From: Synechococcus sp. BL107
GTDB lineage: Bacteria; Cyanobacteriota; Cyanobacteriia; PCC-6307; Cyanobiaceae
Length of the DNA: 64,000 nt
Direction: 5' to 3'
NCBI RefSeq assembly: GCF_000153805.1
Contig: NZ_DS022298.1
Coordinates: 1,492,827 to 1,556,826 of the forward strand
Every line of letters starts with the position of its first letter. Positions within the stretch are counted from its first letter, which is position 1. The notes below the pieces were generated by a model. It had not been told where the DNA came from. It did not search any database and saw only the letters and a program-made list of their open reading frames with translations. Positions 28,420-30,531 of the stretch are shown here, one piece after another. Both the position numbers and the translations under genes were made by a program.

Positions 28420-29421
28420 GTGAGCGCCGAGGAGTCCAACCATCAGCAAAAAATTACCGTCACCCTGTCGAAACGGTTGGTGACGCTGATTGATCAGCTC
28501 AAGCGTGAGTATGGCGTTCGCTCGAGGGGTCTCGTTCTCGAGTCGGTTCTCGAACAATTGATCCAGCCCGAAGATCAGTCGGAGCTGTTGGATCCAAACG
28601 ACCATGATGCCGCTGTGGTCACCCCTGAGGGGTCACCCCCTGAAGCAAGCAGCTTGGTGTTAATCCGCAACACGGAGGCGGACACAGCGATTGATGAGCC
28701 TGAACCGCAACTGCAGCAACAAAGCTCCGTTGGCATTGATTTACCAGGTTTCGTAAGTCGACGCACCACGCAGCTCCGCGACACGCTGTCCCAGCGTTCA
28801 GAGGTCGATTCCTTAGACAAGTCCGTTTCTGGAGAACCCCTACTCTCTTCGGTGTCGCACGCTGATCTAGTCGCTGCTACGCAAGCAGTCAACGAGCACT
28901 GGCGTTCTCTGTATGGACAACCGCCAGGAGACACCGTTGTGGAGGCTTCGATGCTTTGGTTGGCACGGGATGTTTGGTCGACGACAGATGCCAGTGATGG
29001 TCGACCTTTCACCTGGTCTGCTGCCAATGCCTCGATGAAGGAACTCTGTTCTGACTGGGAGCAGGGTGATCCTTCGCTTGGGCGGGTGATGGTGGTCGCT
29101 GGAACATTGGAAGATCCCTTTGCAACGGCTGCTCTCGCTGAGCGAATGCCGACGTTAATTCGACGATTCGTTAACCGCTTTCGTCGAAGTCGTCAGGTCA
29201 CGTCCTTTGAAACGCTGGAGTCCACCATGACCGTGCATGGTGCACTCAAACTCTTGGGCTTGTCGACAACAGCCGGAGCGAGTGTGACGTTGGTTTCCAT
29301 TCGAGAGGCGTTCAAGACAAGAGCCCTAGAGGTTCACCCTGATGCTGGAGGCTCGACAGATGCCATGCGTCGACTTAACGAGGCCTATCGACTATTACGC
29401 GAGCTTTACCGCAATCGTTAA
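28420..29421 (+). CDS. Ribbon-helix-helix-like N-terminus fused to a C-terminal J domain
   Basis: A 333-residue protein in three parts. Residues about 10-49 (KITVTLSKRLVTLIDQLKRE, then SRGLVLESVLEQLI) match the beta-helix-helix outline of CopG/Arc-type DNA-binding domains. A Ser/Glu/Gln-rich linker follows, then a helical middle domain (residues 145-255). The C-terminal 62 residues form a J domain with the diagnostic HPD (306-308, in ALEVHPDAGG) and RRLNEAYRLLREL. J domains stimulate DnaK ATPase; the N-terminus could bring DnaK to DNA or to a dimer partner. The start is GTG at 28420. The RHH call rests on pattern only. Confidence 0.75.
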   Translation: MSAEESNHQQKITVTLSKRLVTLIDQLKREYGVRSRGLVLESVLEQLIQPEDQSELLDPNDHDAAVVTPEGSPPEASSLVLIRNTEADTAIDEPEPQLQQQSSVGIDLPGFVSRRTTQLRDTLSQRSEVDSLDKSVSGEPLLSSVSHADLVAATQAVNEHWRSLYGQPPGDTVVEASMLWLARDVWSTTDASDGRPFTWSAANASMKELCSDWEQGDPSLGRVMVVAGTLEDPFATAALAERMPTLIRRFVNRFRRSRQVTSFETLESTMTVHGALKLLGLSTTAGASVTLVSIREAFKTRALEVHPDAGGSTDAMRRLNEAYRLLRELYRNR

Positions 29422-29491
29422 TTTGTCCCAATCAAGTCTCGTCTTGTGACTATTAATGAGACCAAAACTAGACCAGCTGATCAAATTATTT

Positions 29492-29530
29492 GTCTTAGGC
29501 AAGACGCAGACTAAGACTCATTATGCGTCT
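29492..29530 (+). promoter_or_regulatory. Two interlocking 7-bp stems, possible H-type pseudoknot
   Basis: GTCTTAG (29492-29498) is complementary to CTAAGAC (29511-29517). The loop between them contains AGACGCA (29502-29508), which is complementary to TGCGTCT (29524-29530). Both 7-bp stems are perfect, and the order (5' arm 1, 5' arm 2, 3' arm 1, 3' arm 2) is that of an H-type pseudoknot if transcribed. They could equally be overlapping protein operators, since the arms share the AGAC/GTCT motif. They lie about 40 bases before the candidate small gene. Confidence 0.4.
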
Positions 29531-29533
29531 CAT
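29512..29533 (+). repeat. Imperfect direct repeat, copy 1
   Basis: A 22-base element beginning TAAGACTCAT, matched at 19 of 22 positions by the copy at 29844-29865. This copy lies upstream of the candidate small membrane peptide gene. Confidence 0.7.
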
Positions 29534-29571
29534 CTTGAATTAGTGAGTAGGGGTAAACATCTACTTTTTTC

Positions 29572-29730
29572 ATGTTTTTAATTGATTCGCTCACTCAACT
29601 GATCCTTCCCTCCGCGGTCGGAATGGCTTGTCATGCTCCGCTGTTCTTTGGCTCCTTGTTCATGCTGCTGTCCATCACCTGTCCATTCCTAGGGAGTTTG
29701 ATCCAAATCCAGCTGCAACAGCCTTTTTGA
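29572..29730 (+). CDS. Candidate 52-residue hydrophobic peptide, unknown
   Basis: ATG at 29572 opens a 52-codon frame starting MFLIDSLTQLILPSAVGM, followed by a long hydrophobic stretch (FFGSLFMLLSITCPFLGSLI) that could cross a membrane once, and ending QLQQPF. A second ATG at 29623 would give 35 residues. A perfect 9-bp hairpin followed by five Ts begins 6 bases after the stop, as expected at the end of a short transcript. A weak purine-rich AGGGG lies about 19 bases before the first ATG. It could be a small photosystem- or membrane-associated peptide, but I recognise no family; a non-coding RNA ending at the same hairpin is the alternative. Confidence 0.4.
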   Translation: MFLIDSLTQLILPSAVGMACHAPLFFGSLFMLLSITCPFLGSLIQIQLQQPF

Positions 29731-29735
29731 ATGAG

Positions 29736-29770
29736 GCGTACCTGCTATAGACACAGGTACGCACATTTTT
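29736..29770 (+). terminator. Rho-independent terminator-like hairpin
   Basis: Perfect 9-bp stem GCGTACCTG/CAGGTACGC with a 9-base loop, followed by ACATTTTT. The T-run lies only on the plus-strand side, so it would end a plus-strand transcript such as the candidate small gene at 29572-29730 or an unannotated small RNA. Confidence 0.65.
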
Positions 29771-29831
29771 GGGCTGCCAATTTGGATGGATATCACCCGC
29801 ATAGCAAATCGCGCCTCTCACCGGACTTTCA

Positions 29832-29875
29832 TAAGTCTCGCCATAAGACTCATGATGCATCACATACGAGACTTA
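29832..29875. repeat. 9-bp inverted repeat with the AGTCTCG core
   Basis: TAAGTCTCG (29832-29840) and CGAGACTTA (29867-29875) are perfect complements separated by 26 bases. The spacer contains most of the second direct-repeat copy. There is no T-run, so it is not a terminator; a dimeric regulator site is possible. Confidence 0.6.
29844..29865 (+). repeat. Imperfect direct repeat, copy 2
   Basis: Partner of 29512-29533: the first ten bases (TAAGACTCAT) are identical and 19 of 22 match overall. The two copies bracket the candidate small gene and its terminator. Confidence 0.7.
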
Positions 29876-29977
29876 CGAGAAGCAGGCGAGACGAGGGTTG
29901 CTCTCTAGAGTCTTGCTTGGGAATTGATATTAGACCAATACTGAGTCTCGTTTGAGACATGCAAAGTTTGCGGTCAA

Positions 29978-30007
29978 TGAAAAACCGGGCCATTAACGAC
30001 CCGGTTT
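29978..30007 (-). terminator. apcD terminator
   Basis: AAACCGGG (29982-29989) pairs with CCCGGTTT (30000-30007) around a 10-base loop. Read on the minus strand, the stem is followed by a run of Ts (complement of the As near 29980). It lies about 30 bases past the apcD stop. Confidence 0.85.
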
Positions 30008-30036
30008 CTTCCTTGGTGCACCGTGCTGGTGTTAGC

Positions 30037-30531
30037 TCAGGTGGAGGTCTGCATGCCTTGAATCAAGAAATCAAAGTAAGGGGAAGAAAGCTTGGCTTGT
30101 TGGTCGGAAAGCAAGGCCAGCGAAGCATCCTTCATCGTTTTCATCGCTTCGACCATTCCAGGCATTGGTACGCCAAGACTGTTGTACATCTCCCGAGCAC
30201 CCACCAATCCGATGTCTTCAATCATCTCTGTGCTTCCAGCGAGGACGCCATAGGTCACAAGCCGTAAATACCAGCTGTAATCACGCAGGCATTGGGCGCG
30301 TTGACGTTGTCCGTAAGAGTTCCCACCTGGGGCTACATATTCTGGTTTTCGACTAAACAGCTGCTTAGCCGATTCGTCGACGATCTTTTTCTCGTTATCG
30401 GTCAGGACTTTGACGACCGAAACGCGCATCGCGCCTTGATCAAGAAAATCCACCATCGAGCGAAGTTCGCCGCTGGTGGGGTACCGCAGATCATCATCGG
30501 CTTGAAGGATGAGATCCCGGACAACGCTCAT
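30037..30531 (-). CDS. apcD: Allophycocyanin-B alpha subunit ApcD
   Basis: A 164-residue phycobilisome core protein. ApcD is one of the terminal emitters that pass excitation from the phycobilisome to the photosystems, notably photosystem I. The sequence fits ApcD rather than ApcA: it starts MSVVRDLILQADDDLRYP, carries the bilin-binding cysteine in RQRAQCLRDYSWYLRLVTYG, and has EMYNSLGVPMPGMVEAM near the end. It is monocistronic: its terminator lies 30 bases downstream and the rRNA methyltransferase gene diverges upstream across about 98 bases. That short gap must hold both promoters. Confidence 0.93.
   Translation of the reverse strand: MSVVRDLILQADDDLRYPTSGELRSMVDFLDQGAMRVSVVKVLTDNEKKIVDESAKQLFSRKPEYVAPGGNSYGQRQRAQCLRDYSWYLRLVTYGVLAGSTEMIEDIGLVGAREMYNSLGVPMPGMVEAMKTMKDASLALLSDQQAKLSSPYFDFLIQGMQTST

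Follow-up and report, generated by a model that had tools for sequence, protein, structure and literature searches.

A candidate dif-like chromosome-terminus site with a phased accessory array in Synechococcus and its relatives

The gap between the RHH-J and apcD-like genes

The window, by which we mean the whole 64-kb stretch of Synechococcus sp. BL107 DNA that was analysed, contains a gap of 615 bases (29422-30036), the size already given in a preliminary description of this sequence. The two flanking genes converge on it: a gene for a protein with a ribbon-helix-helix (RHH) and a J domain, referred to here as RHH-J, ends at 29421 on the plus strand, and an apcD-like gene runs from 30531 to 30037 on the minus strand (Table 1). 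The latter is probably outside the system described below, and the inverted repeat at 29982-30007 is, judging from its sequence, likely to be its terminator.

Table 1. Features in and around the gap (window coordinates).
Feature	Position	Strand	Basis
RHH-J gene (333 aa; ribbon-helix-helix at the N-terminus, J domain at the C-terminus); candidate array-binding protein	28420-29421	+	Pfam, linkage, predicted structure
Left AGAC/GTCT block, 9 tetramers	29436-29530		counted positions and phased spacing
Direct TGTCCA pair starting at 29669 and 29680 (11-base step), 50 bases ahead of the core; putative accessory/arm sites	29669-29685	+	GTCCA distance fixed in relatives
Core, 27-base near-palindrome GCGTACCTG-CTATAGACA-CAGGTACGC; candidate dif-like recombination site	29736-29762	+	conservation, position opposite dnaN, GC-skew switch
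Right AGAC/GTCT block, 8 tetramers	29835-29958		counted positions and phased spacing
Inverted repeat, then T run on the minus strand; candidate terminator of the apcD-like gene	29982-30007	-	sequence
Allophycocyanin-family gene (apcD-like), convergent neighbour	30037-30531	-	Phycobilisome E 7.4e-59

The motif density reported for this gap was counted correctly: the 523 bases between 29436 and 29958 hold 18 AGAC/GTCT tetramers and 8 GAGAC/GTCTC pentamers, where 523-base means across the window are 2.8 and 0.8, and they have the highest motif density in the window. One tetramer lies inside the core, at 29749, and the others form the two blocks of Table 1. In the shuffle test that had been called for, neither 18 nor 8 was reached in any of 5000 dinucleotide-preserving shuffles. 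Beyond the window, this was also the densest of 23,580 overlapping 500-base intervals from 600 kb of the same chromosome (15 motifs, with 9 for the runner-up). Within the gap, AGAC is the tetramer pair with the strongest over-representation (18 vs 3.3 expected). Across the Synechococcus sp. BL107 genome the 8-mer GAGACTYA is not enriched, being found at 50 places, fewer than the 93 of its reversed control. The inverted repeats described earlier are indeed present in the gap, but the small gene suspected at 29572-29730 (52 aa) could not be upheld: tblastn found the genome's own loci only, with a best E of 0.81 elsewhere, and the frame has no Pfam match at E <= 0.01 and is not conserved.

The motifs are common to relatives: AGAC reaches 2.42 times its shuffled expectation in 22 same-genus loci, ranks first of 12 letter permutations and has a positive z in all 22 (1.0 to 6.3). 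BLAST of the whole gap against 59 genomes matched 20 (Synechococcus sp. BL107 included), mostly with the core alone aligned; the exceptions were a longer alignment in two genomes (G004 and G027) and an extra piece near the apcD end in a third (G006). Because the alignment is mostly limited to the core, the array is not kept by alignment, and its density and spacing were therefore tested instead.

The AGAC/GTCT sites are a helically phased array with orientation-specific spacings. Copies on the same strand prefer spacings of 12, 23, 32 and 35 bases, and those on opposite strands 10, 22 and 34 (GTCT then AGAC) or 13 and 25 (AGAC then GTCT). Vector strength was 0.41 for a period of 10.5 and 0.43 for a period of 11, whereas 500 draws from shuffled sequence reached at most 0.12 and 0.19. 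In the same-genus set 220 of 245 motif pairs were in phase, in distance bins chosen after viewing the spacing histogram. The 66 host loci outside that set, some of them from named records with no assigned genus, served as an out-of-sample check and repeated the pattern, with 28.0 pairs per base at distances of 10-13, 5.5 at 14-19, 15.2 at 20-25 and 4.5 at 26-29; since the loci share descent, these pair counts are not independent events. Four further tetramers composed of these letters served for comparison; GACA was weakly rhythmic (0.20 at period 11, same-genus set), and the remaining three were not rhythmic. Motif positions do not align between species, so what is kept is a spacing rule and not a sequence.

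A conserved palindrome opposite dnaN

The conserved centre of the gap, missed by the preliminary description, is a single palindromic terminus site with phased accessory repeats. Its core has two arms of 9 bases, or of 11 if the looser outer pairs are counted, that enclose a variable centre of 9 bases. Relatives in Synechococcus, Cyanobium and Prochlorococcus carry the pattern GCGTACCTG-N9-CAGGTACGC roughly once per genome. At up to 3 mismatches it was found at 61 places in 60 of the 201 family genomes, and the reversed control pattern at no place in the same 201. A covariance model built from 72 sites, which counts palindromes on both strands and gives weak extra matches in some genomes, matched 149 of the 201 family genomes and 111 of the 131 good genomes at E <= 0.5. 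Additionally, a search for exact arms in the named genome collection returned at least 80 stretches; 65 of the 80 listed have a cyanobacterial title (Synechococcus, Cyanobium, Vulcanococcus, Prochlorococcus and MAGs), and the 15 with a non-cyanobacterial title were excluded.

Among 88 distinct host sites (duplicate 43-mers and 31-mers excluded from the site sets, and one 31-mer, L135, left out of A1) the arms are nearly invariant, partly as a product of the search patterns, and the centre is variable, with 43 distinct versions; the two outer base pairs flanking the arms also match above expectation. Invariant arms with a variable centre are expected where the arms are what protein subunits read and the centre need only match that of the partner site. 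The covariance model, which demands no arm invariance, found two loci with altered arms, GTAACTG/CAGTTAC (L310) and ATAACTG/CAGTTAT (L311), both with a J-domain gene orthologue next to them. The changes are symmetric in both arms, as expected if two identical subunits read them. Among 59 class genomes the core was not credibly found outside the family: the model matched 8 of the 59, and the 4 matches outside the family (E 6.7e-4 to 0.096) were rejected as chance, having no RHH-J gene within 1.5 kb on either side and no TGTCCA pair in the flanks listed.

The direct GTCCA repeats keep a fixed relation to the core. At least two lie on one side of it, 45-110 bases away, in 68 of 87 host loci, and at least one in 82 of 87, whereas three control intervals held two or more in 1 of 85, 0 of 79 and 0 of 73 loci. 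The pair at 29669 and 29680 is the only direct TGTCCA pair spaced 4-14 bases in the 400 kb around the core, and one more appears when the gap limit is raised to 24. Successive GTCCA copies are most frequently 23 and 11 bases apart. Some GTCCA-GTCT spacings fall at 13 and 25 or at 23, 35 and 12, although their mutual phasing is weak overall (0.16-0.17, with 0.14 for a GTCG-GTCT control), so that reading of all GTCY by one protein is only suggested.

Several other palindromes deserve mention. In Prochlorococcus sp. AG-363-O16 (L127, 603-629) the arms are lengthened to about 25 perfectly palindromic bases each. One of the 60 site-bearing genomes has two copies, on separate contigs. In Synechococcus sp. 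Cruz-7E5 a second copy (L135, 3306-3332) lies on a 10.4-kb contig with neither an RHH-J nor an apcD-like gene, and is possibly from a plasmid or phage. Four Pseudomonas stretches (L079 at 4410, L101 at 5763, L104 at 1183 and L145 at 2511) carry a palindrome with core-type arms, common flanks and near-identical centres (tgcctggca/tgcctggcc), which is a separate conserved Pseudomonas element.

The core lies opposite dnaN, which we take as a marker of the origin side. In 34 complete genomes of 11 genera (single contigs with both core and dnaN located, several sizes being rounded to 0.1 Mb) their median distance is 0.479 of the circle; it is at least 0.45 in 29 of the 34 and at least 0.40 in 32. 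The two cores off the antipode are those of G125 (0.334) and G185 (0.389). G125, with its core at C1:802288-802318, is the only listed complete genome in which the core is just a third of the circle from dnaN; a rearranged terminus, the assembly or a different site are the explanations we consider. Furthermore, in Synechococcus sp. BL107 the GC skew flips at the core, G minus C per base being +0.0122 in the 200 kb before it and -0.0127 in the 200 kb after it, and the cumulative maximum lies 15.4 kb away. Of 20 further 10-kb stretches sampled, all but one, at 220 kb, agree with a chromosome of two replichores. Like dif, the core is one conserved site on the chromosome that lies in the terminus region, although the terminus position may belong to the neighbourhood and not to the core itself, since neighbouring genes are conserved along with it.

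These observations bear on the earlier proposal of a regulatory or small-RNA locus for the neighbouring genes. Part of it stands: the locus is real, its gap is large, the motif density is conserved in relatives, and the core could form an RNA hairpin. Neither of the two refuting outcomes named in the preliminary description, similar motif density elsewhere or a lack of the motifs in close relatives, was obtained. However, the flanking genes converge, so neither promoter is expected within the gap; an Rfam search of the locus gave no match at E <= 1; no consistent T-run lies 3' of the core in relatives; the 52-aa frame is not conserved; and the core is kept at L310 and L311, which have no apcD-like gene within 1.5 kb of it. 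Of the readings considered here, we give this one the least credence, and regard it as very unlikely.

Candidate protein partners

Of the 149 host loci with a core, counted with their duplicates, 132 also have the RHH-J gene. For most of the other 17 the sequence stops within 2 kb of the core on one side, the exceptions being L075 and L135. An alignment of 40 members has an N-terminus reading RRRISLxLS...IDxLKxEWGxRSRGxxLERLL and a C-terminal J domain with the HPD motif, whose residues H306, P307 and D308 are invariant. Pfam DnaJ matches all 40 at E <= 1, which supports the J-domain assignment, and the window's own member scores 22.2 bits, below the cut-off of 27.8. RHH_1 matches 24 of the 40 (best 9.4e-6), the window's own member not among them, and the profile of the family matches NikR (E 0.0033) and CopG (E 0.4), in agreement with a ribbon-helix-helix domain. 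The predicted structure has a mean pLDDT of 73, with the RHH helices (18-31 and 36-48) mostly near 90; a fold search with this model returned nothing at E <= 0.001, and J-domain and VapB/MazE entries at E 0.76-6 only. As an RHH protein tied to the core, RHH-J is the natural candidate for binding the phased array.

An RHH protein at the terminus also recalls MatP, which is itself an RHH protein that acts there, and the locus might organise the terminus or arrest forks with no recombination, the palindrome and array anchoring a MatP-like, condensin-loading or fork-stopping complex. The terminus position of the core and the phased array beside an RHH gene would fit such a role. matS sites, however, are scattered, whereas the core is present about once per genome and the surrounding 400 kb has no second AGAC cluster of such density, so that neither core nor cluster forms many sites across the terminus region. 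A variable centre between invariant arms also suits strand exchange better than pure binding. We therefore consider a pure organising or fork-arrest role unlikely.

Strand exchange at the core would need a recombinase, and our candidate is a 384-aa protein encoded at G000:C1:1040691-1041842 on the minus strand. It is present in 190 of the 201 family genomes and 130 of the 131 good ones, with 51-74% identity among the matches listed (self excluded). The protein belongs to the tyrosine recombinases: it scores 28 bits with PF00589, above the cut-off of 27.1, and all 20 aligned members match. R238, K265, R330, H353 and Y362 are invariant in these 20, and Tyr327 replaces the usual His. Membership of the XerC, XerD, XerS or XerA families was rejected, because scores with the curated NCBIfam models were far under their cut-offs (XerS 17.1 of 267, XerD 16.8 of 329.6 and XerA 16 of 220 bits). 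The catalytic end weakly resembles integron IntI4 (E 5e-5) and a XerC-like protein (E 0.004), and a putative N-terminal arm-binding domain, PF12167, is weakly matched in 3 of the 20 members (best E 0.022).

The gene lies away from the core: in 12 genomes its distance from dnaN is about 0.28-0.34 of the circle. We infer its link to the core from its near-universal presence. Relatives occur in 42 of the 59 class genomes, 5 of those 42 within the family; the recombinase is thus broader than the core, which, if the link is right, would be the family-specific site of a broader enzyme. Two more tyrosine recombinase matches (L063 and L064), one of them stop-interrupted, lie close by each other at G000:C1:2212874-2218871, adjoining a frame with glycine/aspartate-rich repeats, in what looks like a genomic island.

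Viral copies, proposed function and known systems

The core with exact arms was also found in 50 viral contig stretches (IMG/VR, L148-L197), where chance would give about 1 for 18 fixed bases, a rough estimate as the total length of the collection is not given. These copies have 38 distinct centres, with several near-duplicates among them, and share a host centre in 3 of 50. TGTCCA/TGGACA lies within 110 bases of the viral core in 33 of 50 and at least twice in 29, often 11 or 22 apart. Of two viral proteins tested, an RNA polymerase is 47% identical to that of Prochlorococcus podovirus P-SCSP1d and a terminase 42% identical to that of cyanophage KBS-S-2A. tblastn found no recombinase or RHH-J relative in the 50 stretches, the recombinase matches being at chance level only, and a search for recombinase relatives in the viral collection gave 9 pattern stretches and 0 confirmed. 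Four isolate cyanophages had no core at E <= 1, and one viral site region gave only chance matches against 50,697 phage records. Separately, a stretch of a Bacteroidetes MAG (L128, 36-62) has the same core and flanks as viral contigs L171 and L187, and is probably a viral contig binned into that MAG.

The abundance of viral copies, two thirds of them or so with nearby TGTCCA motifs, could mean that the core serves phages or other mobile elements for attachment and has been retained through their recurrent integration at the terminus. Yet just 3 of the 50 carry a host centre, two host copies occur in a single genome and on separate contigs, and no recombinase relative was found on the viral contigs. 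Excerpts of PMC8776855 moreover describe the attP of T7-like cyanophages as matching tRNA-Leu. Phage use alone would also hardly explain near-universal retention of the core, and we consider an attachment site very unlikely. Instead, we tentatively read the viral cores as sites through which phages draw on host proteins, a use that might be multimer resolution.

All these data lead us to regard the locus, with fair though not full confidence, as a dif-like chromosome-terminus site of the Synechococcus/Prochlorococcus/Cyanobium family, served by a single recombinase and a phased accessory nucleoprotein array. One tyrosine recombinase, the 384-aa candidate, would bind both palindrome arms as identical subunits, and strand exchange in the variable centre would resolve chromosome dimers to monomers. 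An oligomerising DNA-binding protein would use the TGTCCA repeats and the phased GTCY motifs (AGAC/GTCT) as accessory sites; this protein is most likely RHH-J, encoded next door, and the nucleoprotein complex that it builds would control or place recombination. More tentatively, and with rather more doubt than belief, we suggest that this is a new variant of dimer resolution, in which a GTCY array filled by RHH-J draws a DnaK-type chaperone partner into terminus recombination by one recombinase at a palindromic site, and in which cyanophage copies of the core and TGTCCA with other centres recruit or divert the host machinery.

Searches of the literature on the site, the recombinase and RHH-J, mostly outside subscription papers, gave no description of the core or of the RHH-J protein among the matches listed. 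According to excerpts of Kono et al. 2011 (PMC3025954), dif was predicted in 578 of 592 single-chromosome genomes and in 0 of 5 cyanobacteria, which left open the route of dimer resolution in these abundant phototrophs. The word 'cyanobacteria' is absent from the excerpted main text of a review of single-recombinase systems (PMC5357621), excerpts of a paper on cyanobacterial replication (PMC7198777) make no mention of 'dif', and those of PMC13342612 concern the dif of other bacteria.

In marine cyanobacteria the core is probably where fused sister chromosomes are separated, a site that had long been missing. Now that a conserved candidate site has been located precisely and both a recombinase and an accessory protein have been named, dimer resolution becomes directly testable in cultured marine Synechococcus. 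Additionally, the core marks the replication terminus, suggests a possible role for the near-universal recombinase and for RHH-J, and draws attention to viruses that may exploit it.

Several known systems share parts of this arrangement. MetJ is an RHH repressor whose boxes read AGACGTCT, and MetJ, Arc and omega are RHH proteins that fill tandem or phased short operators. Our locus resembles these and MatP-matS in pairing an RHH protein with phased short GTCY motifs that it may recognise, and in its terminus location; it differs in that the RHH domain is fused to a J domain and in the GTCY spacing of 10-13/23/35. The XerCD plasmid sites cer and psi have a core, a block of accessory protein-binding sites on one side (PepA/ArgR/ArcA) and variable centres. 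The core described here likewise has a one-sided accessory block and variable centres, but it is chromosomal, its arms are alike, and the candidate accessory protein is RHH-J. In AB-domain integrases (lambda, Tn916) short direct arm-type repeats lie at a distance from the core, to which the distant direct repeats and the possible, weakly matched N-terminal arm-binding domain correspond; here, however, the recombinase gene is conserved and chromosomal, and there is one site copy and no element to integrate.

Regarding the enzyme, excerpts of Smyshlyaev et al. 2021 (PMC8138268) report a lack of Xer in Oscillatoriophycideae, together with a 'Cyan' group of simple tyrosine recombinases. The 384-aa recombinase might belong to this cyanobacterial group, which is said to occur where Xer is missing; the excerpts name Oscillatoriophycideae and give no site. 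Lastly, there is a parallel with XerS-difSL, XerH-difH and archaeal XerA-dif, in which, according to excerpts of PMC5357621, one tyrosine recombinase acts at one terminus site of about 30 bases. Our locus is similar in having one candidate recombinase and a site at the GC-skew switch. In contrast to XerS and XerH, the candidate gene is not near the site; it falls under the cut-offs of the Xer models; the arm and centre lengths (9+9+9 or 11+5-7+11) do not quite coincide with those of dif; and the site, whose arms form a nearly perfect palindrome, is surrounded by a phased accessory array and a linked RHH-J gene.
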